64,000 nucleotides of DNA, from assembly GCA_004173475.1 (NCBI GenBank), contig SEBU01000003.1, forward strand, positions 248,001-312,000, in the 5' to 3' direction. Below are positions 1,941 to 64,000 of the stretch, one piece after another. The position numbers were made by a program, and so were the translations under genes. Positions within the stretch are counted from its first letter, which is position 1; the number at the start of each line of letters is the position of its first letter. Below the pieces are notes generated by a model, which did not search any database, was not told the DNA's origin, and worked only from the letters and a program-made list of their open reading frames with translations. Origin of the DNA: Gammaproteobacteria bacterium (lineage in GTDB: Bacteria; Pseudomonadota; Gammaproteobacteria; Pseudomonadales; Cellvibrionaceae).

Positions 1941-2142
1941 ACTAAATACCTACACCAGAACTTCAGAACTTGTGCGATTGTACCTGAAGACAAAGGCCGC
2001 TTCAGCAGCTTTCTCGACCCTCAATCGACATACTAGGAAGATAGACTTTTAATAGCTAAGGATTAGGGTATTGAGCTTCAGAAGTTTTTCATAATAATAA
2101 TGCGATACACTAACTTCTACCAACCACCCAGAGTTTTTTGTT

Positions 2143-3171
2143 ATGTCTGACTGGAACGATTTTCTCGCATCGGCTACTGCTACTGCTACTGAAATACAGG
2201 GTGCTGAAGATTTTAGCGCTGCGGAACAAACCTTCGAAAACACCTTCTTGATGCTTTTACCACAAGGAATACTAAGTATTACCGGCCCCGATGCCGCCAA
2301 GTTTTTGCAAGGTCAGGTGACTTGCGACGTACGTGAGCTAGCCGACAACAAAAGTTTGCTGGGCGCGCAATGCAATATCAAGGGCCGCATGTTGCTTTGC
2401 TTTCGTGCGTTGCAATCAAATAATGAACAAATTCTACTTCGCGTGCATCAAGGGCTCGTGTCCCATGGGCTCGCTAGCCTCGGAAAATACATTGTTTTCT
2501 CAAAAGCAAAACTCGCGGACGCCACACCTGATTACATCTGCCTGGGTATAGCTGGACCAAATGCTGCGCAAGTTGTTAAAGATGTTTTTGCAGTAGAAAT
2601 AGGAACAGACAGTGATTGGCAAGCTGCGGAAAATCACAAAATTATTCGTATCGACGAACAAAGGTTTGAATGTTGGCTTGCCGCCACAGAAGCCGAAAAA
2701 GTCTGGCAACAGCTAAAAGGTCAAACTACCTGTACACATCACAACCTGTGGACGCTGCTAAATATTCGCGCGGGTGTAGGCGACATAACGCCCGAAACTT
2801 ACGAGACTTTTACGCCGCAGGCGATAAACTTCCAGCTTATTAATGGCATTAATTTTCGTAAGGGTTGTTACACAGGTCAGGAAATTGTTGCGCGTTTACA
2901 CTATCGCGGCACGTTAAAGCGCCATATGTATCGTTTTGAATTTTCAAAAAATAACGCACCCTTACCACTGCCAGGCACATCGCTTCTTAATGCAGACGGT
3001 AAAGTCGTGGGCGAGGTGATTTTGGCTGCGAGTAAGAATACGTCTTCGGGTGAACTGCTTGCCAGTGTCGTGGATGATGAACGCGTCGCGATTTATCTCG
3101 CAAATAACCCAGAAAAACTCAGCCTCCTATCGCTACCCTATGCTATACCTACTCCAAATGAGGCGGATTAA
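2143..3171 (+). CDS. ygfZ: YgfZ-like folate-binding iron-sulfur cluster protein
   Basis: Tetrahydrofolate-dependent protein of the GcvT fold that supports assembly or repair of certain Fe-S enzymes, such as MiaB. The family signature KGCYTGQEIVAR, with its essential cysteine, is intact near residue 245, and the N-terminal half has the expected LQGQVTCDV motif. Length (342 aa) is normal. The N-terminus contains three GCT-ACT repeats encoding Ala-Thr. It stands alone, divergent from sdhE, and precedes the HDOD gene, the same order as in Pseudomonas. Confidence 0.92.
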   Translation: MSDWNDFLASATATATEIQGAEDFSAAEQTFENTFLMLLPQGILSITGPDAAKFLQGQVTCDVRELADNKSLLGAQCNIKGRMLLCFRALQSNNEQILLRVHQGLVSHGLASLGKYIVFSKAKLADATPDYICLGIAGPNAAQVVKDVFAVEIGTDSDWQAAENHKIIRIDEQRFECWLAATEAEKVWQQLKGQTTCTHHNLWTLLNIRAGVGDITPETYETFTPQAINFQLINGINFRKGCYTGQEIVARLHYRGTLKRHMYRFEFSKNNAPLPLPGTSLLNADGKVVGEVILAASKNTSSGELLASVVDDERVAIYLANNPEKLSLLSLPYAIPTPNEAD

Positions 3172-3271
3172 TCCGCCCTTCAAAACACTGACGCTCGAAC
3201 GCATACGCACGTCGAAAAATCACAGTGTGTTGTTTTGATCAAAATCATAATCCAAATAGAGCAGGTAGCTT

Positions 3272-4111
3272 ATGAGTCAAATTGCCGAGCGTGTACGCAG
3301 CGATATTATTAACGCCATCAAAACTGACCAGCTAGTTTTACCCACCTTGCCAGAAGTAGCCCTGAAAGTTCGTGAAGTTGCCGACGATCCAAATGCCGAT
3401 ATCGACAAACTCGTTGGTGTTATTGGGGGTGATGCTGCGCTGAGTGCACGGATTATTCGTGTTGCGAACAGTCCTTTACTACGCGCCTCACGCGCGATAG
3501 AAGATTTAAAGACCGCACTTATGCGCCTGGGGATTTCATACACATGCAATATAGCGACGGGTTTAGCGATGGAACAAATGTTCCAGGCAACATCGGATTT
3601 GGTAGATATGCGCATGCGCGAAGTTTGGAGTCGTTCCAGTGAGGTCGCGGGCATCAGCCATGTTTTGTGCAGACACTACACAAAAAAATTGCGGCCAGAC
3701 CAAGCTACTCTCGCCGGGCTCGTCCATAAAATTGGTGTATTACCGGTGCTGACTTACGCCGAGGATCATCCCTTTTTACTTAACGACAGTCTGACGTTGG
3801 ACAAAGTCATTGATGAATTAAACGCGCCACTGGGCGACATGATTTTACGCGCGTGGGGCTTTCCGGAGGAGCTTGCACACATCCCGTCACAACACATAGA
3901 TTTTCAACGCAAGGTTCCCAAGGCGGATTATGCCGATGTAGTGACTGTTGCCATGCTGCAAAGCTATGCCGGCTCAAACTCACCGCTCGCTCAAATTGAT
4001 TGCTCCAACGTTACTGCTTTTGAGCGCTTGGGGCTTGATCCGGACATTCAATTCTCCGAATCGGAAGATTTATCGGCGGACATGGAAGCTGCAATGTCTC
4101 TGCTGCTTTAA
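3272..4111 (+). CDS. HDOD domain protein
   Basis: Cytoplasmic signalling protein consisting almost entirely of one HDOD domain (HD-related output domain, about residues 15-215). The opening motif LPTLPEVALKVREVADDPNAD and the core helix LVGVIGGDAALSARIIRVANSP are typical. The metal-binding His-Asp pair of true HD phosphohydrolases is not conserved, as is normal for HDOD, so it probably acts as a protein-interaction module rather than an enzyme. It follows ygfZ by 100 bases with its own ribosome site (GAGCAGG). An FNR-like sequence lies just upstream but is too close to the start for ordinary activation. Family is secure, role unknown. Confidence 0.85.
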   Translation: MSQIAERVRSDIINAIKTDQLVLPTLPEVALKVREVADDPNADIDKLVGVIGGDAALSARIIRVANSPLLRASRAIEDLKTALMRLGISYTCNIATGLAMEQMFQATSDLVDMRMREVWSRSSEVAGISHVLCRHYTKKLRPDQATLAGLVHKIGVLPVLTYAEDHPFLLNDSLTLDKVIDELNAPLGDMILRAWGFPEELAHIPSQHIDFQRKVPKADYADVVTVAMLQSYAGSNSPLAQIDCSNVTAFERLGLDPDIQFSESEDLSADMEAAMSLLL

Positions 4112-4150
4112 AGAATTGAAAATTTTTTAACCGCTCACATCTCGCCGGTT

Positions 4151-4205
4151 ACTCTGAGCCGATCGAAACGCCGGTACAAACCCTTCGACAAGCTCAGGAT
4201 GAACG
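4151..4205. repeat. REP-like imperfect palindrome
   Basis: The right arm cttcgacaagctcaggat (4183-4200) pairs imperfectly with actctgagccgatcgaaa on the left (4151-4168). The core resembles a short interspersed sequence that recurs between genes in many proteobacteria. It sits between the convergent HDOD and ung genes. Only one copy is visible in this window. Confidence 0.45.
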
Positions 4206-4219
4206 GGGTTAGATATTAA

Positions 4220-4942
4220 TTAAACATTTTGCGGTAAACGCCAATCAATCGGTGTTTGCCCTTGCTCCTCTAAATATTGATTGGCTTTGGAAAAATGTCC
4301 ACAACCTATAAAACCGCGATGTGCGGATAAAGGAGATGGATGCGGCGCGCGTAAGATCAAATGCTTGCGTCCATCAATAAATTGCCCTTTTTTCTGCGCA
4401 TAACTTCCCCACAAAAAAAACACCACATGCTCGCATTCCTGATTAACAACTTGAATTGCGCGATCCGTAAATTGTTCCCACCCCTGCCCTTGGTGCGAAC
4501 CTGCTCGTGCTTGCTCCACCGTTAAAGTTGCATTGAGCAAAAATACACCTTGATTTGCCCAGGTCTGTAGAAAACCGTGGGCGGGAATGGGGATATGCAA
4601 ATCGCGGTGAATTTCCTTGTAAATATTTTGCAGTGAAGGTGGCGTTGGAATTCCAGGCTGAACCGAAAAACATAGCCCATGCGCCTGGTGCGGACCGTGG
4701 TACGGGTCTTGCCCCAAAATAACCACTTTCACTTCATCAAGCGGAGTGCTATTAAATGCATTAAAAATATTTTTGGATTCCGGATAGATAATTTTACCCG
4801 CTTGCTTCTGCTCCAATAAAAATTTCTTGAGATGCTTCATATAAGGCAACTCAAATTCCGGTGCCAAATGCGCCAGCCAGCTTGGGTGTAAATCGATAGC
4901 TTTTTTAGATGTCATGAGAAAAAGTGTGCCCGGCAAATGCAT
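4220..4942 (-). CDS. ung: uracil-DNA glycosylase
   Basis: Family 1 uracil-DNA glycosylase, which removes uracil from DNA as the first step of base excision repair. The water-activating motif GQDPYHG and the uracil/DNA-binding motif [11 protein letters not shown] are intact, and the region between ([20 protein letters not shown]) is typical. I chose the ATG at 4942 because a GGAG stands 7 nt before it. Homologues suggest the ATG at 4915 (starting MTSKKAID), which lacks a clear ribosome site; the extra nine residues may not be used. Monocistronic and convergent with the HDOD gene. Confidence 0.95.
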
Positions 4943-11573: not shown

Positions 11574-11873
11574 ATGCTAAAAAACTTAGTTAGAGTAGAT
11601 TTAGAGAGTCAATACAGAGGTTTTAATATTTGCTTCTGGACCATGTTGATCATTGCCATCATCGCATCTTTAGCTGGTCAGTCAGAAATTGCTATCGCCT
11701 TGGGTACCCTGGGTTTAGTGAGCGGCGCAATTGGCCAATTGAAACTAATATTGATCAATCAACAACGCTTTCTGGCAAATCAGGAAATATTTTTAGCTAA
11801 CCAAGAGACTTTTCTGGCAAACCAAAAATTGTTTTTGGAGCAGCTTGAAGTAATTAAAGCAAAGTCTCAATAA
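11574..11873 (+). CDS. small membrane protein with heptad-repeat tail
   Basis: Unrecognised protein of 99 aa. Two hydrophobic stretches (about residues 18-34 and 38-60) form a membrane hairpin. The C-terminal 35 residues are a near-perfect heptad repeat, FLANQE-type units three to four times over, ending FLEQLEV, so a short coiled coil is likely and the protein may oligomerise. The ribosome site GGGGGAAGG upstream of the ATG is very strong, which argues for real and efficient translation. It stands alone between two hairpins. Function unknown. Confidence 0.7.
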   Translation: MLKNLVRVDLESQYRGFNICFWTMLIIAIIASLAGQSEIAIALGTLGLVSGAIGQLKLILINQQRFLANQEIFLANQETFLANQKLFLEQLEVIKAKSQ

Positions 11874-11890
11874 AAGCTCCGAGCTCCACC

Positions 11891-11922
11891 TCAGCTATAG
11901 CCCGCTCCAAGGCTATAGCTGA
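11891..11922. terminator. 12-bp perfect hairpin after small membrane-protein gene
   Basis: tcagctatagcc and ggctatagctga pair perfectly around an 8-nt loop, 18 bases past the stop codon. There is no T-run, so it is either a Rho-independent terminator of poor type or an mRNA-stabilising hairpin. Confidence 0.5.
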
Positions 11923-12114
11923 CGAGTCTTAACACACATTACGCACTATGTTCACGTTTTCTTCAGCACTATAAAAATAAAAATGAAAACTCCTTGTATA
12001 GTAGATACCCGCTTTTTTTCATAAATAAATTTTATAATGCGAGCTAATTACGTTAGTTGTTCATTATAAAGTCTTTTGAAATCTCCACACCAATCAATAA
12101 GACAGGATCATTTC

Positions 12115-13239
12115 ATGTTAAATAGAAAACATATTTTAAATTACACTTTAAGTCTTGCGCTTAGTTTTGGTTTTGCGGCTAAGGCTCTCAGCTCAACAAA
12201 TTTGGATCTTGTTGTAGGAGGTTATACCGATAAAGGTGGTGAAGGTATTTACAGCGTAACACTCGATACAACAACCAATAAATTCGGCCCCGTAACAACG
12301 TTGGCTAAAACCGCTAACCCCTCATTCGGATTAAAGAATAAAAATCTTTGGTATTTTGTTGACGAGTCTGCCGAAGGTCAGCTCTCAACTTATAGTCAAA
12401 CTGACAAGGGTGAGTTAAATTTTTTACAGAAAGTATCTGTTAGTGGTAAATCACCCTGTTTCATATCAAAACGAAATGATGATAAATATATCGCCGTTGC
12501 CAATTACAACTCTGGAAGCCTTGCTGTATTTGAGCTGGACTCAAAAGGTCTACCCAAAGGAAAGCCTCAATTAAAACAACATGAAGGTAGCGGACCTAAA
12601 GGCAAACGTCAGGATTCAGCTCATGCTCATTGGGCGGGCTGGTCTCAGCTAAATGATGACAAAAAATCTACAGGTATTTATGTTGTGGATTTAGGTGTAG
12701 ATAAAATATTTTGGTATCCACAAAACGCAAAAGGAAAACTAGGTGATGCCCAGGTCGCTTACAACGCAACGCCCGGTGACGGTCCACGTCATTTGGCATT
12801 TCATCCTAAAAATCCTTGGGTGTACGTTGTAAATGAATTGAGCAACACTGTGTCATTTACGCAGCAAGCTGCTGATGGCCGTTTAACAGAAGTGCAAAAA
12901 ATTTCTACCGTCCCTAACGGATTTAACGGTAATAACACTGCAGCACATATAGTTATCAGCGCAGATGGAAAGCATCTTTATGTATCGAATCGCGGAGATT
13001 TTAATACCATTGAGGTATTTGATATTGCTGACGACGGGCGCTTAACGGCGGTTCAAAGTATTAGCAGCCAAGGCAGAATACCTCGTTACTTTGTATTGCT
13101 TGACGACGCGAAAAAAATGCTCCTTACTAATCAGGAGTCTAACAATCTTGTAGTTATGAATGTATTACCAAATGGTCAACTAGCTTACTTTGGCGTCCAA
13201 ATAAGTATTCCAAGCCCTACTTTTGTTGCGCTTAAATAA
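12115..13239 (+). CDS. secreted lactonase-family beta-propeller (6-phosphogluconolactonase type)
   Basis: Protein of the PF10282 lactonase family (YbhE-like), a seven-bladed beta-propeller. The recognisable repeats include HLAFHPKNPWVYVVNE and HIVISADGKHLYVSNRG. Unlike the cytoplasmic E. coli Pgl, it carries an N-terminal signal peptide (MLNRKH followed by a hydrophobic stretch to about residue 28), so it acts in the periplasm, which makes 6-phosphogluconolactone an unlikely substrate; another sugar lactone is more plausible. The ATG at 12115 has AGGA 8 nt upstream, preferred over an earlier ATG at 12076. 374 aa, monocistronic, followed by a terminator. Confidence 0.85.
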   Translation: MLNRKHILNYTLSLALSFGFAAKALSSTNLDLVVGGYTDKGGEGIYSVTLDTTTNKFGPVTTLAKTANPSFGLKNKNLWYFVDESAEGQLSTYSQTDKGELNFLQKVSVSGKSPCFISKRNDDKYIAVANYNSGSLAVFELDSKGLPKGKPQLKQHEGSGPKGKRQDSAHAHWAGWSQLNDDKKSTGIYVVDLGVDKIFWYPQNAKGKLGDAQVAYNATPGDGPRHLAFHPKNPWVYVVNELSNTVSFTQQAADGRLTEVQKISTVPNGFNGNNTAAHIVISADGKHLYVSNRGDFNTIEVFDIADDGRLTAVQSISSQGRIPRYFVLLDDAKKMLLTNQESNNLVVMNVLPNGQLAYFGVQISIPSPTFVALK

Positions 13240-13261
13240 TAATATTTTGCTTAAATACAAG

Positions 13262-13283
13262 CGGGCCTTTTGGCCCGTTTTTT
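13262..13283 (+). terminator. intrinsic terminator of lactonase gene
   Basis: cgggcc-tttt-ggcccg followed by six T, 22 bases after the stop codon. Confidence 0.92.
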
Positions 13284-13341
13284 GTTTTACAAGTCCGGAT
13301 TTGTTAGTCTGTATTTTTTCCAAAACTAATCAGTGACTTTT

Positions 13342-14129
13342 ATGACGACGAATTTTTCCGAGCACGATTTAAAAGAGCTCCAGGTTGCAAAAAATTTATT
13401 GGAAAACCCTGGTGTAGCAGCAAAAGCAACTAATTTCATCGGTATGCCAATAGAAAAGGGATTAGCGTTGCTGCCCAAAAGTTGGGATGCACGTATAGGC
13501 GACATCACGCGTTCCGCTCTACTCAAAGCTTCAGACGCAGCAATCTTCACGATGAAAGATATTCCTGGCGAGGAGTCATCTAATACCTGGCACAAACTTG
13601 GTGTCGCGGTAACCGGCGGTGTCGGTGGCTTTTTCGGTATTGCAGCTATGGCGATCGAATTGCTTCTATTATGTTGCGCTCAATAGCTGACGTCGCGCGC
13701 AGCGAGGGCGAATCAATTACATCAATGGAAACAAAACTAGCTTGTCTCGAAGTATTTGCTTTAGGTGGTAATAGCAAATCAGACGACAGCAGTGACAGTG
13801 GTTATTACGCGGTGCGCGCAGCCCTCTCAAAATCTTTAGCCGATGCTTCTGAACTTTTTGTAAAAAATGCGCTATCGGACAAAGGCGGACCGCTTTTAGT
13901 TAAATTCATTGCAAAAATTGCGGAGCGGTTTGGCATACAGGTTACCGAAAAGGCCGCTGCACAAGCTATACCCACCATAGGTGCGGCTGGTGGTGCGATT
14001 ATCAACATTATTTTTATGGATCACTTCCAGGATATGGCGAGAGGACATTTCATCGTAAGAAAACTGGAGAGAAAACACGGTAAAGATCTCGTAAAAAAAA
14101 TATACGATGAACTTCCAAAACTTGGTTAG
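13342..14129 (+). pseudogene. EcsC family protein gene, frameshifted
   Basis: Two overlapping frames encode the two halves of one EcsC-family protein (PF12787). The first (13342-13686) ends abruptly after ...GFFGIAAMAIEL with a nonsense tail. The second resumes at 13671 with MLRSIADVARSEGES, which in intact members follows within about six residues (usually ELP-x-TTT-I-M). Here only 8 nt separate the Leu codon from that Met instead of about 18, so roughly 10 nt have been lost, shifting the frame. The C-terminal half is otherwise intact to the end, with hydrophobic segments typical of the family. Function of EcsC proteins in proteobacteria is unclear. Either a young pseudogene or an assembly error. 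Confidence 0.8.
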
Positions 14130-22525: not shown

Positions 22526-23650
22526 TTACTTCGGCATATTTTTAGGCAGCTGCACGCGAAACGTTGTGCCATGTTCTTTCGTCGATAAAACTGAAATATC
22601 ACCGTGGTGAGCAGTAACGATTTCACGAACTATATATAAACCTAATCCGAGATTCTTTTTCAAATTACGCTCGTCTTCAACGTGTGGAATACGGTGCATA
22701 AGGTTAAAGATGTAATGTTGGCTTTCTAAGGGAATAGGTGTTCCGTCATTCTGAACGGTGAAAACAATATGATCGTCAAATGCCGTTGTAACAACCGTAA
22801 CAGCGGAATCAGCGGAGCCGTATTGCAATGCATTGCTAATAAGATTTTGATAAGCCTGGCTTAGCCTTCCTGCATCCCAACTTCCGGTGCAGTCTCCATG
22901 TACTTCGTTGTGAATGATTCGATCAGAGTGGGATAAACGAAACTCTTCAACAACTTGTTTCGAAATTTGAGCAAGATCAATCTGATCATAAATAATCTTT
23001 AATCCACCGCCAATCCTGCTCTGGGTGAAATTCAAAAGATTGTCGAGCATTTTGTCCATTCGCAAAACACTGGCGAACATTTGCGATCCTAATCTTGCCG
23101 AACGAGCATCGGATTCAGCACCGTACATGAGTAGCTGAGCACCTGCGCCAATTGAATTAAGAGGGTTACGTAAATCATGGCCGAGCACTCCGAGGAAAAT
23201 ATCCTGCGACAGTACTATGGATTCCATGTAACGAGTGATGGACTCCGCCAATGCCTGATCCACACCTTCATTAAAGCGAATTAACTCGTTGACTCGATCC
23301 TGATTGTCACATTTACTGTCAACAAACCAGAGCTTTAAAACACTCGCTCGCAACGCACGATACTCAGATGCAAGCAAGTCGATTGAGAAACCAGAACTCA
23401 ACCGGCAGTCCGCATGAATTTCTGCTGGTGTATCGCCCTCAACACGCAATTGGCGGCCTTTTGATTTTTCGCTGCGCTCGAATTCTGTTTGTGGTGTTGC
23501 CATATCCTCGGCAATCGTTTTTAGCATTTCCTCCGCATGATCACGCAATTCCTTTGTCGTCATTTCCCCAGGCTGGATTGACCGCGCGAAACTTACCCAC
23601 TCCTGAAGGATTTGCTGCATGTTCTCCAATATAAATTGGTGAAGTTTCAT
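22526..23650 (-). CDS. histidine kinase with RsbRD-like N-terminus
   Basis: Soluble sensor kinase, about 374 aa. The N-terminal half (roughly residues 5-150) is helical and resembles the RsbRD N-terminal domain of stressosome proteins. The kinase half has the H-box LGHDLRNPLNSIGAG, N-box YQNLISNALQYG, and glycine motifs NDGTPIP and NLGLGLYIVREI. The ATG at 23650 is preferred to a TTG at 23665. It is divergent from rsbR, with about 280 bases between, and shares the stressosome-like sensory module, so it probably belongs to the same signalling group. No membrane segment or receiver domain. Confidence 0.85.
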   Translation of the reverse strand: MKLHQFILENMQQILQEWVSFARSIQPGEMTTKELRDHAEEMLKTIAEDMATPQTEFERSEKSKGRQLRVEGDTPAEIHADCRLSSGFSIDLLASEYRALRASVLKLWFVDSKCDNQDRVNELIRFNEGVDQALAESITRYMESIVLSQDIFLGVLGHDLRNPLNSIGAGAQLLMYGAESDARSARLGSQMFASVLRMDKMLDNLLNFTQSRIGGGLKIIYDQIDLAQISKQVVEEFRLSHSDRIIHNEVHGDCTGSWDAGRLSQAYQNLISNALQYGSADSAVTVVTTAFDDHIVFTVQNDGTPIPLESQHYIFNLMHRIPHVEDERNLKKNLGLGLYIVREIVTAHHGDISVLSTKEHGTTFRVQLPKNMPK

Positions 23651-23933
23651 ACGAATATTTTCCAAAGAGGTGGCGGATTAAGCCGGCAACATTAACATTC
23701 TTAGTGATGCATAACAAATGCGCACGCGGCGTTTAAATTGCTATTAAAGCGTTTTTCTAACAATTCGCAAAGTTGCTATGAGCGCCAGCGCACCGACGAA
23801 TCGGTTTTTACATCGATACTATAAGGTAGTTACACGCCAGCCATTCCCACGGCACTGGACACGCCCATGACAGTAGTTCAGTTGTAGCGGTTTAATCCTA
23901 CACTTTCGCTTTAGCTTATTTTTGAGGACAATT

Positions 23934-24800
23934 ATGAGTGATAATAAGAACGCTCACTTGGAACATATATTAACTACCTACCACGCCGAATTACTTGAAA
24001 GTTGGGTACCCGATTTAATTGGCCGCCTCACCAGGCGCGATAAGCGAGCCGAAAATGAGCTCCATCAACAAGCAGCACAATTTCTTCCGTTACTGGCTAG
24101 CACTTTAAAAAAAACCTCCCTTGAAAATATCAATGATCCAGGCTGGGATGACGTAAGGCACCTATTGAGCGACATGTCCCAAGCTCGCGCTCGTCAAGGT
24201 TTTTCACCGATTGAAACAGCAAATTTTGTATTTTCACTAAAAAATCCTTTGTTCAATTATCTACGACTTGCATTGAACGATGATCCTGCGCAGCTCAGTG
24301 AATTAGTCTCAAGCACAGGCACTTTATTTGACAATCTTGGCCTCTACACCATTGAAGCCTATCAAAAGACCCGCGAATTAATTATCCAACGCCAACAGCA
24401 AGAATTATTAGAGCTATCAACTCCCGTTGTGCAGTTGTGGAAAAACATTTTAGCTCTGCCTTTGATAGGCACGCTCGATAGTGCGCGTACGCAAGTGGTA
24501 ATGGAAAATTTGTTACAAAAAATTGTTGATACGGGTGCATTGATTGCCATCATCGATATCACCGGTGTGCCAACTGTGGACACGCTAGTAGCGCAACATT
24601 TGTTAAAAACTATTGCAGCTGCCCGATTGATGGGTGCTGACTGCATTATCAGCGGGATACGCCCGCAAATAGCGCAGACCATTGTGCATCTCGGTGTGAA
24701 TCTTGAAGATGTTATTACCAAAGCAACGCTTGCTGATGCGTTTGTAATCGCTTTACAGCGCACTGGATCGAACGTAAACCAAATAGACAATGAGCGTTAA
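23934..24800 (+). CDS. rsbR: stressosome protein RsbR
   Basis: Scaffold and sensor subunit of the stressosome, which with RsbS holds the kinase RsbT until stress releases it. Residues 1-150 are a variable sensory domain. The C-terminal STAS domain (about 165-275) is very close to Bacillus RsbR, including PLIGTLDSAR, DITGVPTVDTLVAQH and GIRPQIAQTIV. The threonine in VDT corresponds to one of the sites phosphorylated by RsbT. The ATG at 23934, with GAGGA 6 nt upstream, beats an earlier ATG at 23922. First gene of a tightly packed six-gene operon; rsbS follows after 6 bases. Confidence 0.93.
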   Translation: MSDNKNAHLEHILTTYHAELLESWVPDLIGRLTRRDKRAENELHQQAAQFLPLLASTLKKTSLENINDPGWDDVRHLLSDMSQARARQGFSPIETANFVFSLKNPLFNYLRLALNDDPAQLSELVSSTGTLFDNLGLYTIEAYQKTRELIIQRQQQELLELSTPVVQLWKNILALPLIGTLDSARTQVVMENLLQKIVDTGALIAIIDITGVPTVDTLVAQHLLKTIAAARLMGADCIISGIRPQIAQTIVHLGVNLEDVITKATLADAFVIALQRTGSNVNQIDNER

Positions 24801-24806
24801 TTTTTT

Positions 24807-25208
24807 ATGGAACGCATTCCTATTTTAAGGATGGGTCGACTTCTTCTCGTCACCATTCAAGTCGATATGCATGACCGGTTAGCAATGACATTACAGGATG
24901 ATTTAACAAATCGTATTGTAAGTGATCGCGCAACCGGCGTTCTTATTGATATTTCAGCGTTAGATATTGTCGATTCTTTTATCGGTCGCATGATCAGCAA
25001 TACAGCAGCTATGGCTAAGATTTTGGATGCACGCACCGTTTTGGTCGGCATGCAACCTGCAGTTGCTATAACGCTGGTTGAACTCGGTTTAACACTGGAA
25101 GGTGTGAGTACAGCACTCAATGTTGAATTGGGTATTAAATTGCTGCAGCAGCAAGTCGATATGACAGCGTTGAATCGACAAGCTGTTACGCGCCACTGGA
25201 CGCGATGA
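24807..25208 (+). CDS. rsbS: stressosome STAS protein RsbS
   Basis: Single-domain STAS protein of 133 aa, slightly longer than the Bacillus protein because of the C-terminal tail. The phosphorylatable serine lies in the conserved LDIVDSFIGR, and VGMQPAVAITLVELG matches the stressosome family. In known systems RsbS phosphorylation by RsbT triggers release of RsbT. It sits between rsbR and rsbT, one base before the latter. Confidence 0.93.
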   Translation: MERIPILRMGRLLLVTIQVDMHDRLAMTLQDDLTNRIVSDRATGVLIDISALDIVDSFIGRMISNTAAMAKILDARTVLVGMQPAVAITLVELGLTLEGVSTALNVELGIKLLQQQVDMTALNRQAVTRHWTR

Positions 25209-25209
25209 T

Positions 25210-25626
25210 ATGACGCCAGCCCAACCGGCATCTCATGTGCTGCCACTTAAAAGTGACGAAGATGTTGTTCGTCTGCGAAAACAAGTTCGTGAAGATTTAG
25301 TTGCTTTAGGTTTCAGTTTAATTGAGCAAACTAAAATGGTCACCGCTGCCAGTGAGCTCGCGCGCAATACCTTACGCTACGGCGGAGGTGGTGAAGCTCA
25401 TATAGATCAAGTAGAAGATGGTAGTCGTCGCGGGTTATCACTTAGCTTTATTGACCAAGGTCCAGGTATTGAGGATATAGGCTTGGCACTTACCGATGGT
25501 TACACCAGTGGTAACGGGTTGGGCTTAGGATTGAGTGGCGCAAAACGCCTTGCCGATGATTTTGCTATAGACACAGCGCCGGGTAGAGGCACTACCGTTA
25601 AAATTGCTAAATGGAAACCATTTTGA
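25210..25626 (+). CDS. rsbT: stressosome serine/threonine kinase RsbT
   Basis: GHKL-type switch kinase, 138 aa, which phosphorylates RsbS and RsbR and, once free, activates a downstream partner. Motifs: N-box ASELARNTLRYGGGG, G1 DQGPGI, and G2 GLGLGLSGAKRL. It starts one base after rsbS and overlaps the next gene by 16 bases. In Bacillus its target is the RsbU phosphatase. Here no rsbU, rsbV/W or sigB gene follows; the next genes encode an ATPase-PP2C protein and kinases instead, so its downstream target probably differs. Confidence 0.93.
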   Translation: MTPAQPASHVLPLKSDEDVVRLRKQVREDLVALGFSLIEQTKMVTAASELARNTLRYGGGGEAHIDQVEDGSRRGLSLSFIDQGPGIEDIGLALTDGYTSGNGLGLGLSGAKRLADDFAIDTAPGRGTTVKIAKWKPF

Positions 25627-26639
25627 TTCATTTCGGAGCACAACAAGCATTCCATATTGGCGACCCCAGTGAAATTTTTGCAGCGCGACGCGCTGCAACT
25701 TATTTAGCGAAAAGTCTAGACTTCAATGATCTGCGCAGAGCGCAACTTGAGCTCGTGATCACCGAAGCCGGTACCAATATTATTAAACACGCACAGCGGG
25801 GTGAATTACTTCTGCGTGCACTTACCCATGAAGATAATTTCGGAATTGAAATTATCGCAATAGATAACGGCCCCGGCATTTCCAATATTAATTTTCAAAT
25901 GGAAGATGGCAATTCCACCACCGGCACTTACGGCGGTGGCCTCGGAGCCATGAGCCGTCTCTCACAGGAATTCGATATTTATTCCAACGGCCAAAACGGC
26001 GCCGCTTTAATCATGGTGATATGGGCAGACACAATTCCAGCTCCAGACGAACAGTGGAAAATTGGTGCAGTGTGTTTACCGATGGAAGGTGAAGAAGTGT
26101 GTGGCGACGCGTGGACTGTGGAAGTCTGTGACAACAGCTTAACTTTATTAGTAGCAGATGGTTTAGGTCATGGCCCTGAAGCAGCCAGAGCGTCGCAAGC
26201 AGCAGTTACCGCGATCGCTACGAATCCAGGTAAATCGCCTGCGGCCCTAATGGATTGTGCACACAAAGCATTGTATGGAACGCGAGGTGCAGCGGTCGCT
26301 ATTTCAAAAATTAATGAAGCACGTAGCGAATTAAAATTTGCTGGCGTCGGTAATATTGCTGTTAGTGTTTTTATTAGTGCTGGACGTAAACATTTACTGT
26401 CACACAATGGAATTGTGGGTAGTAATTTGCGCAAGCTGCAAGAAATAAATCAGGCGTGGGAAGAGGATGCTTTGCTCATCGCCCATTCTGACGGTTTGGG
26501 AACACGCTGGGATTTGGATCAATATCCGGGTTTAGCGCAAGCTCATCCAGGTTTAATTGCAGCAATTTTGTATCGTGATTTTAGCCGTGGCCGTGATGAC
26601 GTCACAGTCATAGTGGTAAGAGATATTACGGAATTTTAA
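25611..26639 (+). CDS. RsbT/RsbW-like ATPase fused to PP2C (RsbX-like) phosphatase
   Basis: Two-domain protein, 342 aa. Residues 1-135 are a GHKL ATPase like RsbT/RsbW (N-box ITEAGTNIIKHAQ, G1 DNGPGI, G2 GTYGGGLGAM). Residues 150-340 are a PP2C-type serine phosphatase like RsbX, with VADGLGHGPEAARA and HSDGLGTRWD. Such proteins are commonly found after rsbT in stressosome loci and are thought to reset RsbS and RsbR by dephosphorylation. The opposing kinase and phosphatase activities in one chain suggest a bifunctional switch, but the catalytic competence of the N-terminal domain is inferred only. Overlaps rsbT by 16 nt; 1 nt gap to the next gene. Confidence 0.9.
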   Translation: METILIHFGAQQAFHIGDPSEIFAARRAATYLAKSLDFNDLRRAQLELVITEAGTNIIKHAQRGELLLRALTHEDNFGIEIIAIDNGPGISNINFQMEDGNSTTGTYGGGLGAMSRLSQEFDIYSNGQNGAALIMVIWADTIPAPDEQWKIGAVCLPMEGEEVCGDAWTVEVCDNSLTLLVADGLGHGPEAARASQAAVTAIATNPGKSPAALMDCAHKALYGTRGAAVAISKINEARSELKFAGVGNIAVSVFISAGRKHLLSHNGIVGSNLRKLQEINQAWEEDALLIAHSDGLGTRWDLDQYPGLAQAHPGLIAAILYRDFSRGRDDVTVIVVRDITEF

Positions 26640-26640
26640 A

Positions 26641-28437
26641 ATGACTATCCGCATTTTAACAGTCGCCATAAAAACTGAGCTCGATATAGTTGCTGCACGC
26701 CAACGTGCGCGTGAAATTGCGAGTATTTGCGGTTTTGCTTCGCAAGACCAGGCGCGAATAGCGACATCGATTTCAGAATTGGCCCGCAACGTCTATAACT
26801 ACGCCGGCAATGGAAAAGTGCATTTCACCATTGAAGGTGAAACAGCACCGCAAATCCTCACTATTTATGTGGAAGATAAAGGTCCGGGAATCGACAATCT
26901 CGATGAAATTCTTTCCGGTAATTATGTTTCTGCTACGGGCATGGGCAAAGGAATTTTAGGTGCACGACGTTTAATGGACAGGTTTGATATTAAAACCAGT
27001 CAGCGCGGCACTGAAATTATTTTACAAAAACTTTTCCCGCGCGATGCAAAACTCATTACCCCAAAAATGAGCGGTAGCATATTTTCCCAACTTTCAATTC
27101 TTTCCCCTGAAGCAACCATTGCAGAAGTTTTACACCAAAACACTGAGCTGCTTCATACGCTGGCGGAATCAAAAGCGCGTCAAGACGATTTAATACAACT
27201 CACCCGGGAGCTTGAAGATACCAACCGAGGAGTTGTAGCGCTCTACGCCGAACTGGATGAAAAAGCCGAACATTTACGCCGAGCAGACGCAATGAAATCG
27301 CGTTTTCTCTCTAATATGAGCCATGAGTTTCGCACTCCATTAAGTTCAATTCGCGCACTCTCCAAATTGCTGCTGGATCGTATTGATGGCGATTTAACCA
27401 TTGAGCAAGAAAAACAAGTATTGTTTATTTTGCAAGGTGCACTGGGGTTAACGGATCTCGTTAATGACTTACTGGATTTAGCGAAAATTGAAGCAGGAAA
27501 AATTGATATTCGCCCACATACGTTCAATGTTGCTGAAATGTTTAGCGCATTGCGTGGCATGTTGCGGCCACTGCTTATATCCGAATCATTAGATTTAAAT
27601 TTTGTGGAACCAAATTTTCATTTGGAAATGTTTACCGATGAGGCCAAGCTTTCACAAATTTTACGAAATTTTATTTCCAATGCGTTGAAATTTACGGAAG
27701 CCGGTGAAATCACGGTGAATGTGAGTTTCATGGAACGCGAAGGCCTCGTTAAATTCACGGTTAAGGATACCGGCCTTGGTATAGATGAAAATGACCAAAA
27801 GATTATTTTCGAGGAATTCAGTCAGCTGGAAAATTCTCTACAACAAAAAGTAAAAGGTACCGGTCTGGGTTTGCCACTCTGTAAAAATTTGGCAACTTTG
27901 CTAAATGGCAGCGTAGCGGTTGAAAGCACACCGGGCGTGGGTTCTATTTTTTCAGTAACCTTGCCACAACATTACTCCCCACCGACACCTAAGAAAGATT
28001 TGAATAGACCTGAACCGACAACGTCGAAAAAAGATGATCGTTTACCGATTCTCGTTGTTGAAGATAATGCTTCCACTCAACTTCTCTACCAAAAGTTTTT
28101 TGCAGACACAGAATTTCGCGTGGTAATCGCCAATACTGTTCGCCAAGCCAAAGAACTTTGGTCTTCCGTTAAACCTTTAGCGGTTATTCTCGATATATTC
28201 CTCCAAGGAGAGACCGCGTGGCCCTGGCTCGCAGAAATTAAAAATGATCCGGTATTGCGTCGCGTACCAGTAATTGTAGCGACTGAAATAGAAGATAAAC
28301 GCAAAGGCTTGTCATTGGGTGCCGATGCCTACTACGTAAAACCTATATTTAAACAGCAACTTATTTCGACAATTAGAACACTGATCGGCGGCTCTCTATC
28401 ACAACCGCCAACTGCTATTGCTGCACAGCTAAAATGA
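26641..28437 (+). CDS. RsbT-like ATPase + histidine kinase + receiver hybrid
   Basis: A composite protein of 598 aa. Residues 1-135 are an RsbT-like kinase domain (N-box ISELARNVYNYAGNG, G1 DKGPGI, G2 MGKGILGARRLMDRF). A coiled coil (about 150-215) leads to a complete histidine kinase: H-box SNMSHEFRTPLSSIRA, N-box RNFISNALKFTEAG, G motifs DTGLGI and GTGLGLPLC. A receiver domain (about 470-590) has its phospho-acceptor Asp in AVILDIF and the conserved lysine in YYVKP. It therefore contains two different ATPase domains, one of partner-switching and one of two-component type. Tightly packed: 1 base after the previous gene. Confidence 0.92.
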   Translation: MTIRILTVAIKTELDIVAARQRAREIASICGFASQDQARIATSISELARNVYNYAGNGKVHFTIEGETAPQILTIYVEDKGPGIDNLDEILSGNYVSATGMGKGILGARRLMDRFDIKTSQRGTEIILQKLFPRDAKLITPKMSGSIFSQLSILSPEATIAEVLHQNTELLHTLAESKARQDDLIQLTRELEDTNRGVVALYAELDEKAEHLRRADAMKSRFLSNMSHEFRTPLSSIRALSKLLLDRIDGDLTIEQEKQVLFILQGALGLTDLVNDLLDLAKIEAGKIDIRPHTFNVAEMFSALRGMLRPLLISESLDLNFVEPNFHLEMFTDEAKLSQILRNFISNALKFTEAGEITVNVSFMEREGLVKFTVKDTGLGIDENDQKIIFEEFSQLENSLQQKVKGTGLGLPLCKNLATLLNGSVAVESTPGVGSIFSVTLPQHYSPPTPKKDLNRPEPTTSKKDDRLPILVVEDNASTQLLYQKFFADTEFRVVIANTVRQAKELWSSVKPLAVILDIFLQGETAWPWLAEIKNDPVLRRVPVIVATEIEDKRKGLSLGADAYYVKPIFKQQLISTIRTLIGGSLSQPPTAIAAQLK

Positions 28438-28448
28438 GGAATAGAAAA

Positions 28449-29954
28449 ATGCCCAATTTCTACCTGGACGCACTCATCCTCAATGTTGATGACAATGACG
28501 GTGCCCGCTATGCAAAGACACGTATTCTCACTCTCGCAGGATTTAAAGTCATTGAAGCTAATTGTGGTGCGGAAGCACTCTCAAAAACACGAAGCTATTC
28601 GCCCAATTTAATTTTGCTCGACGTTAAGTTACCGGATATTAATGGCCTAGAGGTTTGTCGCCAGATAAAAGAGGACGAAAATACAAAGCACATATTAATA
28701 TTACAAACATCCGCCTCTTTTATCGGTTCTGCGGATAAAATTCGCGCGCTTGATGGCGGCGCCGATAACTATTTGGTTGAACCTATAGAGCCCGATGAAC
28801 TTCTAGCTAACGTTAAAGCGCTCTTACGCTTGGGCAGGTTGGAACGCGAACTGCGCGATGTTGACCGTCGTAAAGATGAATTCCTTGCGACACTCGCCCA
28901 CGAGCTGCGTAATCCGTTAGGGCCCATTAAAAATTCTGTTGAGTTGTGGCGCAGGCTGGAGCCGACGCTGCAACCTCCGCTCGAAAGCATTCGTAATACC
29001 ATCGCACGTCATTCGAATCATCTCGCGCATTTGGTAGATGATTTATTAGATGTTTCGCGTATCTCGAAAGGAAAAATTTCCCTACGCTGGGAAAAAGTTG
29101 AGTTAAAGAATTTCATTAACAGCGCTGTTGAACAAAGCGCGCAAGCAATCGAAAATCGAAAACACACATTAAATATAAATTTACCGCAAAAAAATATTTG
29201 GGTAGCCGGTGACCAGGTTCGTCTTTCGCAAATAGTCGTTAATCTTTTATTAAATGCCGCTAAATTTACCGAACCAGGCGGAAACATAGACCTGTCTGCG
29301 GAGGAGATTGACGATAGCGTTGTCATTCGTTTGAAAGACAACGGAATAGGAATTGCAGACAACAAAATAAATTCAATTTTTGAATTATTTGAGCAAAGCG
29401 GCCACGTCACTGATCGTGTTCAGGATGGGCTTGGAATAGGCTTGTCGCTGGTGCGTGCATTGGTGAGGTTACACGGCGGTGAAGTGCACGCCGAAAGTAA
29501 TGGTATAGGTCAGGGCAGTATTTTTGAAATAAAACTTCCCATTGAAACTGAAAGCCTCGATATCCCCACCGAAGAGCCAGCGCCTACCGAAGAAACAATG
29601 AAACGGATTTTAATTGTAGATGATAACGAAGACGGTGCTATTACCCTTGCGCAACTTCTCGAATTAAAAGGTCACGATGTTCAGACCGCTTTTACCGGTG
29701 CCTCTGCCGTTGAAAATGCCAGCCAATTCAATCCAGATATTATATTTCTCGATATAGGTCTCCCTGATTTCAGCGGCTACGAAGTCGCGAAAAGATTACG
29801 TGCCCTACCCCAAGGTAAAGTTTTTTCTTTGATTGCATTGACCGGCTATGGACAGGCACATGATCGTCAAACAGCGCTGGACTCAGGCTTCGATGATCAT
29901 TTTGTGAAGCCTATCGATTTCAAAAAATTAGAGGCGATGGGGATTTTGATTTAA
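28449..29954 (+). CDS. receiver-histidine kinase-receiver protein
   Basis: Last gene of the stressosome operon. Domains: receiver 1 (about 5-120), HisKA with H-box ATLAHELRNPLGPIKN, HATPase (N-box VNLLLNAAKFTEPGG, G motifs KDNGIGI and GLGIGLSLVRAL), and receiver 2 (about 385-500; acceptor Asp in IIFLDIGLPD). Receiver 1 has the acceptor Asp in ILLDVKLPD, but the conserved lysine after beta-5 reads Glu (YLVEPIEP), so its response to phosphorylation may be altered. I place the start at 28449, preceded by TGAGGA, rather than at the ATG 28434 that overlaps the previous stop. Probably the output or relay stage of the pathway. Confidence 0.9.
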   Translation: MPNFYLDALILNVDDNDGARYAKTRILTLAGFKVIEANCGAEALSKTRSYSPNLILLDVKLPDINGLEVCRQIKEDENTKHILILQTSASFIGSADKIRALDGGADNYLVEPIEPDELLANVKALLRLGRLERELRDVDRRKDEFLATLAHELRNPLGPIKNSVELWRRLEPTLQPPLESIRNTIARHSNHLAHLVDDLLDVSRISKGKISLRWEKVELKNFINSAVEQSAQAIENRKHTLNINLPQKNIWVAGDQVRLSQIVVNLLLNAAKFTEPGGNIDLSAEEIDDSVVIRLKDNGIGIADNKINSIFELFEQSGHVTDRVQDGLGIGLSLVRALVRLHGGEVHAESNGIGQGSIFEIKLPIETESLDIPTEEPAPTEETMKRILIVDDNEDGAITLAQLLELKGHDVQTAFTGASAVENASQFNPDIIFLDIGLPDFSGYEVAKRLRALPQGKVFSLIALTGYGQAHDRQTALDSGFDDHFVKPIDFKKLEAMGILI

Positions 29955-30086: not shown

Positions 30087-31058
30087 TTATTTGGACTTTA
30101 CTGCGGCCGAAGGTATACGTATTTCAAAACGACTGCCTTTTACACCTTCCGCACTAAATGCAGCAACAGAACCGCCGTGCTTCTCTACGATATTTTTAAC
30201 AACAGCCAAACCTATTCCCAACCCATGATTAAGATGACCAAAATTTTGGGATGCGGGCCCGAAGAGATCGAAAATTTTCGGCAATAGCTCTGGTGCTATA
30301 CCACTACCATCATCTATAACATTTATAATTACCTGATCATTGGCAGAACTTAATTTCACCCATATGTTGCCGCCTTGCGGAGTATATTTCGCGGCGTTAC
30401 ACAATAAGTTTTTTAAAACCTGCAACATTCGCTTGTGGTCACCGATAATATATAAATCATCCACAGGAGATTCCACGTTAATGGAATGATTACGCGCGCG
30501 AATAATGGAGTCATTTTGCTCCAATGCTTCCGTCACCAAATGCTTCACATCCAGCAGTCGCATATCATTGCCTACCAACCCACGGGCAAAATGCGATATG
30601 TCTGAAAGATCGTCAATAAGCCCTACGAGCAGATTTATTTGACGTTGGATAACGCTTGTCATTTTCTGCAGACGAGCGGGATCCGGTTTGGCGATACTCA
30701 ATATTTCAGCCGCAGCGTTAATTGAAGATATAGGATTACGTAACTCATGGGCGAGATGGGCGAGCAACTCATCTTTGTACTGCGCCTCTAGTTGTAAATT
30801 TTTGAATTCGTGCGCTGAATTGTTTAAATGCACAAGCTCATTGCCATCCCCTGCAGAATCTTCCGCATGCTGAATCACAAAAACCGGTTTTAATTCTCGA
30901 TCTGTTTCCATATAGGTCGTACTCAGAATTTGATCACTCGCGCGCTTCTCGAGCAATTGGTTAATTTCGGTATACTTTATTATTTCGATGTACCTGGCGT
31001 TCTTCACCAAAATATCTATTACATACTTTCCTATGACGGTTGACCTTTCGACACTCAC
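30087..31058 (-). CDS. histidine kinase, PAS domain interrupted by frameshift
   Basis: As it stands the frame opens with a GTG at 31058 that lacks a ribosome site, and encodes the second half of a PAS domain (STVIGKYVIDIL ... ETDRELKPVFVI) followed by an intact kinase: H-box AHLAHELRNPISSINA, N-box KNLLCNAAKYTPQGG, G motifs DDGSGI and HGLGIGLAVVKNI. The missing first half of the PAS domain lies in another frame immediately upstream (to 31159). A single-base change in a run of six A (31059-31064) would restore one continuous protein of about 357 residues. It is convergent with the stressosome operon. The kinase core may still be made from an internal start. Confidence 0.82.
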   Translation of the reverse strand: MSVERSTVIGKYVIDILVKNARYIEIIKYTEINQLLEKRASDQILSTTYMETDRELKPVFVIQHAEDSAGDGNELVHLNNSAHEFKNLQLEAQYKDELLAHLAHELRNPISSINAAAEILSIAKPDPARLQKMTSVIQRQINLLVGLIDDLSDISHFARGLVGNDMRLLDVKHLVTEALEQNDSIIRARNHSINVESPVDDLYIIGDHKRMLQVLKNLLCNAAKYTPQGGNIWVKLSSANDQVIINVIDDGSGIAPELLPKIFDLFGPASQNFGHLNHGLGIGLAVVKNIVEKHGGSVAAFSAEGVKGSRFEIRIPSAAVKSK

Positions 31059-62978: not shown

Positions 62979-63461
62979 TTAGGAATTTTCCAACATGGTG
63001 ACGAGATTTTTAAAGGTTTCGTGATTTTTTTCGTTAAGACCCATCAAAATCCTATGAGCTTCAAGCACTTTTTCCTTAACTTCGTGCTCATCACATTCAA
63101 TTGTTTTTAAACAGTTTTCAGGCGCAATATCCACGTTCAACTTGCTAACTATTTTAAAAATATCGGCAAATCCCATGGTGTCCAGAATTCGCTTAATACT
63201 GCTATTGGTAGCTAGTATTACAGGCATTACATTGCGTTTTTCCTGGGACAAAATTGAAATTTTTGCCATCAATCCGAGCGTGGTGCTATCAACCGCCTCA
63301 GCTTCTGACAAATCGAATAAAACTGAAGAAAAATTTGGTGAGATCAACATACTATCGATAAATTGATCGAAGGAAATACATAATGTAAGACGAACGTCCC
63401 CCGTCATCTTAATGATGTAAACCCCATCATGGTCTGCAACTAATATCTGACCGGGACGCAT
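62979..63461 (-). CDS. STAS-domain anti-anti-sigma-type protein (HsbA-like)
   Basis: 160 aa. STAS domain in residues 1-105 with the phosphorylatable serine in AEAVDSTTLGLM. The C-terminal 50 residues are a helical extension like that of Pseudomonas HsbA. It is preceded by the PP2C phosphatase gene with one base between, so the pair forms a partner switch in which the phosphatase would dephosphorylate the serine. A kinase partner is not in the window. Confidence 0.85.
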   Translation of the reverse strand: MRPGQILVADHDGVYIIKMTGDVRLTLCISFDQFIDSMLISPNFSSVLFDLSEAEAVDSTTLGLMAKISILSQEKRNVMPVILATNSSIKRILDTMGFADIFKIVSKLNVDIAPENCLKTIECDEHEVKEKVLEAHRILMGLNEKNHETFKNLVTMLENS

Positions 63462-63462
63462 G

Positions 63463-64000
63463 TTACTTACCTCTCACAATCGTAAGGATGGCTATATCGT
63501 CAGGCGTTTCGCCATCATCCTTAACATGTAAAGTATTGCAGATGGATTCAAGGCTGCCAGTGGATTCGGCAACTTTTTGCAGCAATTCCGCTTCTTTATC
63601 CTGAATCGCATCTGATGGCAAAATTTCTAATACACCATCAGAAAAACAAGAGAGCGTAAAAACTTCAGGAAGCTGTAATTGATAGACATTCCATGTCACA
63701 TCTTTAAAAATTCCAACTGGTTTTCCTATACCGTCAAGGTAATGACATTCAGTCTGGGTCTTTAAAATAGGCATGGGTAAATGACCGGCCACGGAATAAT
63801 TCATTAATTGTGTGTGCGTATCAATCACACCTACAAAAAATGTTAAATGATGATTCAAACGTGTTTCTTTAATTTCTCTATTCACGGTCTGAAGCAATAA
63901 ATCTGAACCTGTAGTAAATGATTCTTCATCACCAAACAATCCTTCTTCACGCACCATTCGACTCACGAGGTGTTTTAGCCAAATAGTTACGAAGGCAGAC
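63463..64000 (-). CDS. PP2C-type phosphatase (SpoIIE/HsbR-like), 5' end outside window
   Basis: C-terminal 178 codons of a PP2C-family serine phosphatase. The frame is open to the right edge, beginning ...VTIWLKHLVSRMVREEG, and an internal GTG at 63966 is not a credible start. Family motifs are VAGHLPMPIL, CFSDGVLEIL and DDIAILTIVR. In Pseudomonas the related HsbR protein also has an upstream receiver domain; that part would lie beyond base 64000. One base separates it from the STAS gene. Confidence 0.88.
   Translation of the reverse strand, partial: SAFVTIWLKHLVSRMVREEGLFGDEESFTTGSDLLLQTVNREIKETRLNHHLTFFVGVIDTHTQLMNYSVAGHLPMPILKTQTECHYLDGIGKPVGIFKDVTWNVYQLQLPEVFTLSCFSDGVLEILPSDAIQDKEAELLQKVAESTGSLESICNTLHVKDDGETPDDIAILTIVRGK

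Follow-up and report, generated by a model that had tools for sequence, protein, structure and literature searches.

In Gram-negative bacteria, the route by which stressosomes lacking RsbU and SigB transmit their signal is an open question. It is raised by a six-gene operon at positions 23934..29954 (+) of a 64,000-nucleotide stretch of DNA from a Gammaproteobacteria bacterium (contig SEBU01000003.1, positions 248,001 to 312,000; this whole stretch is called the window below), where the stressosome genes rsbR, rsbS and rsbT are followed by a phosphatase gene (X) and two histidine kinase genes, here termed TK and RK. With moderate confidence, we read the operon as a Gram-negative stressosome with a histidine kinase output: RsbT would switch TK through a conserved helix, TK would pass phosphate to RK, and an RsbT-like domain at the N-terminus of TK (the head) would serve as a helper or built-in stand-in.

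The first three genes are consecutive and encode a stressosome core. rsbR (23934..24800, +) begins with an ATG at 23934, with GAGGACAATT just before it, and combines an RsbRD_N sensor (PF14361, 87.9 bits) with a STAS domain (PF01740, 48.7 bits) holding the phospho-threonine positions T217 and T249. rsbS (24807..25208, +) encodes a single STAS domain (PF01740, 31.8 bits) with the phospho-serine position S57; the protein is 39-80% identical to six RsbS from other loci. rsbT (25210..25626, +) encodes a free GHKL kinase (HATPase_c, 3.3e-10) with an intact ATP site and an arginine pair, R23 and R27. In X (25611..26639, +) an N-terminal GHKL ATPase (PF13581, 41.5 bits) is fused to a PP2C phosphatase (PF07228, 33.1 bits), the families HATPase_c_2 and SpoIIE of Pfam.

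TK (26641..28437, +; HATPase_c_2, HisKA, HATPase_c and Response_reg in Pfam) starts with the head, an intact fused RsbT-like ATPase (residues 1-135; 26641..27045, +; PF13581, 50.5 bits). A signalling helix follows as a linker (residues 157-216; 27109..27288, +) with the core LEDTNRGVVALYAELDEKA, and runs on into the HisKA domain of the kinase core (27289..27984, +; Pfam), which carries the phospho-acceptor H228. The C-terminal receiver (28048..28374, +; PF00072, 42.9 bits) contains D518 and K567, so that with H228 and HATPase_c the protein is a hybrid histidine kinase. RK (28434..29954, +; Response_reg-HisKA-HATPase_c-Response_reg in Pfam) consists of a receiver, REC1, with D63 and without the canonical lysine (28473..28838, +), a kinase core with H156 (28872..29546, +) and a canonical receiver, REC2, with D440 and K492 (29607..29936, +). 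The initial annotation had described six genes with almost no gaps, and all open reading frames (ORFs) were recovered at distances of +6, +1, -16, +1 and -4 bases from rsbR to RK; its domain assignments agree with Pfam. Its further claim of three consecutive N-boxes (E...N) holds, but the term RsbT-type suits RsbT and TK, which share SELARN, better than X. In X the box is more diverged (TEAGTN), and the second arginine of RsbT's first helix is absent in all 81 complete loci described below. Promoter-like sites showed no excess over shuffled sequence, and terminator-like sites no clear excess (11 against 7.7 +/- 2.9 in shuffles).

A search of genomes for the same gene order, as the initial annotation had proposed, was successful. 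We compared 85 loci: the window, 80 named loci with the nearest RsbS (the best 80 of 586 confirmed relatives in a scan with an RsbS alignment) and 4 plasmid loci reached by tblastn of TK against plasmids. The six genes lie in order in 81 of the 85, 80 of which had been picked by RsbS nearness, and these include Deinococcus and one cyanobacterium; the idea of a locus unique to the window was thereby ruled out. On plasmids or other replicons the complete order is found in Deinococcus radiodurans MP1, Caballeronia, Variovorax and Xanthomonas vasicola. The four incomplete loci are two contig-end cuts (L074 and L103), one rearrangement (L070) and one true exception, L061 (Noviherbaspirillum malthae, 4.7 kb contig, 2058-4697), which has about 2 kb of unrelated ORFs at the X position and is not a contig-end case. 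Residue counts out of 81 refer to the complete six-gene loci and leave out L070, for which the X and RK ORFs were mis-picked. No seventh conserved gene turned up in the 6 kb to each side of the operon in 82 loci (L070 included with its mis-picked RK); the largest neighbour family occurs in 14 of the 82, on both sides and both strands. When 398 Pseudomonadota genomes were sampled evenly, a profile of the TK linker and HisKA matched 18 of them, the window's own included, at a threshold of 1e-15. Fourteen of the 17 other matches sit directly between X and RK, and the fused head was detected in six of these (one weakly: L130, 42 bits) and undetected in eight. For the three weakest matches (1e-16 to 1e-17, ORFs of 962-1402 residues) X was not visible, and the ORF occupies most of the stretch retrieved.

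The catalytic residues and predicted phosphosites of the core are invariant. RsbS S57 and the RsbR threonines T217 and T249 are each present in 81/81 loci, and we take them to be the counterparts of the B. subtilis phosphosites. The same is true of RsbT E49, N53, D82, R23 and R27, and of X E52 and N56 (its N-box), D85 and the four PP2C aspartates. X is an ATPase joined to a PP2C domain in each of the 81 complete loci, the window's among them, and not the single-domain PP2C of an RSTX module; four of the more distant operons considered below (L119, L120, L121 and L124) encode the ATPase and the PP2C separately.

Of the TK regions measured, the linker is the most constrained. The ratio of nonsynonymous to synonymous substitution (dN/dS) was calculated for four clades of 26, 10, 9 and 9 rows (54 of the 81), over regions that exclude the TK receiver. 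The linker has median values of 0.05-0.16, below the kinase core (0.14-0.29), RsbT (0.13-0.32) and the head (0.25-0.63; 0.26 where intact, 0.37 and 0.63 where decayed) in all four clades, and is the slowest-evolving region measured. Linker residues L191, N195, L201, E204, A209 and L212 occur in 81/81 loci each, as does the phospho-acceptor H228. AlphaFold2 (AF2) predicts a single helix, residues 157-245, in which the linker continues unbroken into HisKA; with a predicted template modelling score of 0.47, the placement of the head in this model is unreliable.

The TK receiver is far more variable: the aligned position is Asp in 27 loci and Ala in 7, and no residue aligns in 47, one of which is L052 with a broken frame. 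There (Janthinobacterium sp. TND4EL3, 11840-13700) TK lies in two overlapping frames, through a frameshift or a sequencing error. Counting L052, TK is without a usable receiver in 54/81 loci and would therefore have to pass phosphate to another protein. RK D63, in REC1, is present in 81/81 loci and is the sole receiver aspartate found in all complete loci; H156 is kept in 79/81, and REC2 has its Asp in 78/81 (with 3 gaps) and its Lys in 77/81. A PAS-sized insert in RK, taken as a spacing of >150 between the REC1 Asp and the HisKA His, accompanies 37/38 decayed heads, 8/8 headless TK and 4/35 intact heads. In the rearranged L070 (6685-8913 and 8874-9992, both -), from a Herbaspirillum metagenome-assembled genome (MAG), RST lies on the opposite strand from X and a chimeric ORF, which joins the TK head and linker to the PAS, kinase and REC2 of RK. 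Neither the TK kinase core nor RK REC1 is present there, a joint loss to be expected of a transmitter and its receiver; as this is one MAG contig, an assembly fault is possible.

The head is 34% identical to RsbT. We defined it as intact when the N-box Glu and Asn, the G1 Asp and Gly and the two G2 glycines are present; the window's head has N50, D79, G81, G83, G100 and G102, together with R20 and R24. Across the 81 loci the ATP site is intact in 35 and damaged in 38, and the head is absent in 8 (Variovorax, Xanthomonas and Pseudomonas) that still keep TK and its linker. A fused RsbT copy as essential messenger, as the initial annotation had allowed, is thus rejected as a general rule, since the operon persists with damaged or missing heads. 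Trees were built from the RsbS, RsbT, X and TK linker-kinase columns, excluding the head, without an inferred root. On the 81-row tree the head states need four changes, three of them decays: in Massilia/Duganella and their kin (27 rows), in Caballeronia/Paraburkholderia (10 rows) and in Mycetohabitans (L098), whose decayed head still has the N-box Asn and G1. A second tree, limited to 44 of the 81 rows and built under a slower mixture model, gave the same three decays (5-95% range 3-3 over 200 bootstrap trees). As the tree is unrooted, absence of the head could be the ancestral state.

Decay has affected the ATP site and spared an arginine pair. N50 is lost in 37/38 decayed heads; R20 is Arg in all 73 heads and R24 in 70 of them, each in 38/38 decayed ones. 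These residues align with RsbT R23 and R27, and in the SpoIIAB chains 1til, 1l0o, 1th8 and 1tid Arg20 aligned at TK R20. SpoIIAB Arg20 contacts both its STAS partner and sigma-F. From their spacing and from the B. subtilis sequence, TK R20 and R24 are presumably the counterparts of two RsbT arginines implicated in RsbU binding. RsbT residues R19, R23 and N24 are reported to be implicated in binding RsbU, which RsbT activates by contacting its linker (Baral, 2025; PMC12143880).

In separate models, the decayed head of L065 has the same predicted strand and helix order as the intact head, minus the lid helix; its lid is poorly predicted, with a predicted local distance difference test of 53 for residues 81-90 and 44 for residues 91-100. 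In the distant kinase of L126, the head matches an RsbT profile over 78 columns (hhalign, 93.9%) and its N-box Asn is gone; a Pfam scan of this head returned no family. L126 is a fourth, distant candidate for a head turned pseudokinase. Single-sequence searches of the PDB with the head or RsbT returned nothing at 0.01, and a profile search found SpoIIAB and RsbW. In a Foldseek search with the TK model, the 50 rows listed were all histidine kinases or their relatives and were uninformative for the head.

More distant operons fill the same slot with other kinases. The TK head matched 16 of 369 genomes of the class, the window's own included, and longer stretches were taken for 8 of the other 15. 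One (G311, locus L125) has an operon of the window type. Among the other seven, five have a kinase with an RsbU_N domain directly after PP2C (E-values 3.6e-16 in L119, 1.2e-7 in L120, 2.9e-10 in L122, 2.8e-6 in L123 and 2.2e-18 in L124), one is the decayed-head kinase of L126, and L121 is cut by a contig end. After rsbRST and PP2C, L122 (9892-11526, -) and L123 (8670-10237, -) carry an RsbU_N-HisKA_3 kinase and then a REC-LuxR response regulator. The response regulator is the plainest sign of a two-component output for such operons. Because RsbU_N kinases and kinases with intact, decayed or absent heads occupy one slot, the kinase there would be coupled through an RsbT receptor domain, a fused RsbT copy, a decayed copy or the helix alone. 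We also asked whether RsbU_N and the TK linker exclude each other across the 398 genomes; they occur in 9 and 18 genomes without overlap, too few to interpret.

Does the window's genome hold a sigma-factor switch that could use RsbT instead? The assembly (4.73 Mb, 60 contigs) is 99.8% complete. RsbU_N was not found in it, and no sigma factor scores above the SigB/F/G cut-off; four give weaker matches that fall short of it, and the profile also matches in 10/14 control genomes. A sigma-B cascade, with an RsbU_N phosphatase and a SigB-type factor, is accordingly not seen, either after the operon, as first noted, or elsewhere in the genome, where the initial annotation would have counted a set dependent on this RsbT as a refutation. 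Partner-switching parts as such are not absent, as other PP2C, STAS and ATPase genes are present. One partner-switch pair, STAS protein plus PP2C phosphatase, runs off the end of the window (62979-64000, -). On another contig of the same genome (C58, about 28-30.5 kb; L127, 5012-7496), genes for Hpt, REC-PP2C-ATPase and STAS proteins stand beside flagellar-looking genes, a set that we take to resemble HptB-HsbR-HsbA. That this Hpt could receive phosphate from the stressosome operon, to which it is unlinked, is possible but unsupported.

From the order, domains and conservation of these genes, the independent decay of the head and the lack of RsbU_N and SigB-type matches, we infer the following interactions and phosphotransfer steps. 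RsbR and RsbS, judging by their conserved phosphosites, would form the core and hold RsbT at rest; phosphorylation of RsbS by RsbT would release RsbT, and the PP2C part of X would reset the core, by analogy to RsbX. Released RsbT would then act on TK, its probable target being the conserved signalling helix before HisKA, much as the binding of RsbT to RsbU in B. subtilis orders the coiled-coil linker of RsbU. The head, placed directly on this helix, may be a copy of RsbT built into the kinase for regulation. Given that the operon has survived repeated damage to the ATP site of the head, the head would in many species work by binding, as dimer partner, lock or decoy, and not by catalysis; where RsbT acts in trans on its own, the head may be dispensable. 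TK His228 would pass its phosphate to RK, most likely to REC1 Asp63, since the TK receiver is missing or lacks its Asp in 54/81 loci. RK, with a second kinase and a canonical receiver, could carry the phosphate on to some Hpt or regulator. The initial proposal that RsbT signals by His-Asp transfer in place of a sigma factor thus keeps its core, as a kinase output best fits the conserved unit, the missing RsbU_N and SigB-type factor, and the RsbU_N domain on the slot kinase in five of seven other operons; the fused copy as essential messenger falls away.

Several points weigh against this reading. Direct binding of RsbT to the TK helix is argued by analogy, as TK has no RsbU_N, and coiled-coil mechanics alone could account for the conservation of the linker; the dN/dS values come from a simple Nei-Gojobori script applied to short, divergent regions. 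Decayed heads also keep the N-box Glu46 (38/38), Arg49 (37/38) and mostly Asp113, so that the retained residues extend beyond the partner-binding helix. Over residues 13-30, the consensus of the two decayed clades agrees with the intact one at only 72% and 50%, where G1 agrees at 17% and 0% and the lid/G2 region at 9% and 18%. Head decay could not be tied to loss of the TK receiver: the receiver Asp is present in 27/35 loci with an intact head and in 0/46 others (the broken frame of L052 is part of these counts), yet with L052 set aside this amounts to 4 independent pairs, of which 3 agree (p 0.25, not significant). The canonical Lys of RK REC1 is present in 0/81 loci (E 44, A 27, H 9, Q 1), which by sequence marks an atypical receiver that may not accept phosphate normally. 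L061 has RsbR, RsbS and RsbT with unrelated genes where X, TK and RK are expected, and the named loci, ranked by RsbS closeness to the window, are no census of stressosomes. In Vibrio vulnificus, Heinz (2022; PMC9237108) obtained no positive interaction between RsbT and VvD1.

A bolder form of the proposed kinase output is that the kinase has internalised a copy of its own activator: the built-in RsbT would grip the signalling helix, the stressosome would be read as an exchange of free for built-in RsbT, and in three lineages the copy would have become a pseudokinase that keeps its Arg pair and not its ATP site. We offer this tentatively. It is unlikely, in our estimation, that TK is instead a client of the stressosome, its head docking on RsbS/RsbR as an RsbT mimic to tether the kinase, which RsbS phosphorylation or displacement by RsbT would switch. 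The retention of the RsbT Arg pair in heads with a damaged ATP site would suit such docking, as would the alignment of the STAS- and sigma-F-contacting SpoIIAB Arg20 at the first Arg; however, sequence cannot tell an STAS-binding from a linker-binding face, and the 8/81 headless loci with TK and linker would require the tether to be dispensable.

TK and RK might also be an independent two-component pair that merely shares the operon, with RsbT acting on X, whose ATPase residues checked are intact in 81/81, or on other PP2C/STAS sets such as the flagellar-region REC-PP2C-ATPase, STAS and Hpt genes. Such sets do exist in the genome, but RsbU_N was not found there, the order with TK and RK is kept across Pseudomonadota, Deinococcus and a cyanobacterium, and five more distant operons carry RsbU_N on the kinase itself; we regard this separation as quite improbable. 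RsbT could act on TK or RK by Ser/Thr phosphorylation, which Heinz (2022; PMC9237108) proposes for Vibrio and for operons without RsbU_N. The window's TK lacks RsbU_N, the catalytic residues of RsbT are invariant, and candidate targets exist, for example linker T194 (79/81), although no systematic search for conserved Ser/Thr targets was made. In known stressosomes, however, RsbT catalysis is already needed for RsbS and RsbR, and its conservation does not point to TK; we consider direct Ser/Thr switching very improbable. The four sigma factors below the SigB/F/G cut-off are what can be said for a conventional RsbU/RsbV/RsbW/sigma cascade elsewhere that uses the window's RsbT. Given the completeness of the assembly and the results above, this is mostly refuted, and we give it almost no weight.

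If a histidine kinase does read this stressosome, a kinase fold would have been turned several times into a binding-only regulator. The variants with an intact, decayed or absent head, with RsbU_N in its place or with the head joined to another kinase (L070) are natural experiments. They indicate a single short helix as the likely RsbT target, and TK with RK as the likely partners in phosphotransfer, from TK to RK.

In the tree, the window falls together with two MAGs, one of Cellvibrio and one of another gammaproteobacterium (100/99), inside an otherwise Oxalobacteraceae clade (99/99), and two genomes of the same family in the phylum draw have no linker match. This placement and pattern suggest that the operon was acquired by horizontal transfer from betaproteobacteria; its GC content is similar to that of its surroundings. 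Two neighbours lie outside the conserved unit. A convergent histidine kinase (30087..31058, -; HisKA and HATPase_c) follows RK, and a divergent one (22526..23665, -; HisKA, HATPase_c) precedes rsbR. The latter has an RsbRD_N-type sensor (PF14361, 27.1 bits); apart from this one and that of RsbR, no RsbRD_N was found in the genome, so that both copies lie in the window. This sensor was not seen in the other 84 loci, where matches below 30 bits were not listed. Homology between the two RsbRD_N domains was considered and not retained: both are above the Pfam cut-off, but pairwise BLAST shows no similarity.

Compared with known systems, the operon resembles most closely the RSTX modules (PMC9237108) and the V. 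vulnificus RSTX-VvD1-VvD2 operon (PMC10014275): rsbR, rsbS and rsbT are followed by an RsbX-like PP2C gene and, a few bases downstream, by kinase and receiver genes, sigB is missing, and a two-component or phosphorelay output is proposed. It differs in that the surveyed RsbR has a globin sensor (Heinz, 2022; PMC9237108) where the window has RsbRD_N, and in that the window's X has an extra N-terminal ATPase and its kinase an RsbT-like head and no RsbU_N. With the B. subtilis RsbRST-RsbU-RsbVW-SigB cascade it shares the phosphosites of RsbR and RsbS and the ATP site of RsbT, whereas a search of its genome yielded neither RsbU_N nor a SigB-type factor. The Hpt, REC-PP2C-ATPase and STAS set outside the operon presumably parallels the Pseudomonas HptB-HsbR-HsbA system; a connection to the stressosome would be speculation. 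RsbU_N-histidine kinases, already noted in stressosome operons by Heinz (2022; PMC9237108) and Baral (2025; PMC12143880), occupy the same slot after PP2C in L119, L120, L122, L123 and L124, and there RsbU_N precedes the kinase domain. At this position, unlike them, TK has no RsbU_N: Pfam gives HATPase_c_2, the ligand fold of RsbT and not the receptor fold (hhalign of the RsbT profile against the L124 head, probability 0.1%). We found no description of an RsbT-kinase fusion in the literature, a search that did not extend to figures or to subscription papers such as Pane-Farre 2005/2017, which may list one. RST modules that feed HisKA/REC proteins have been published (Heinz, 2022; PMC9237108). 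The idea of a stressosome leading to a phosphorelay is thus already in print, and TK, a kinase with a fused RsbT-like head, looks to be the new part.

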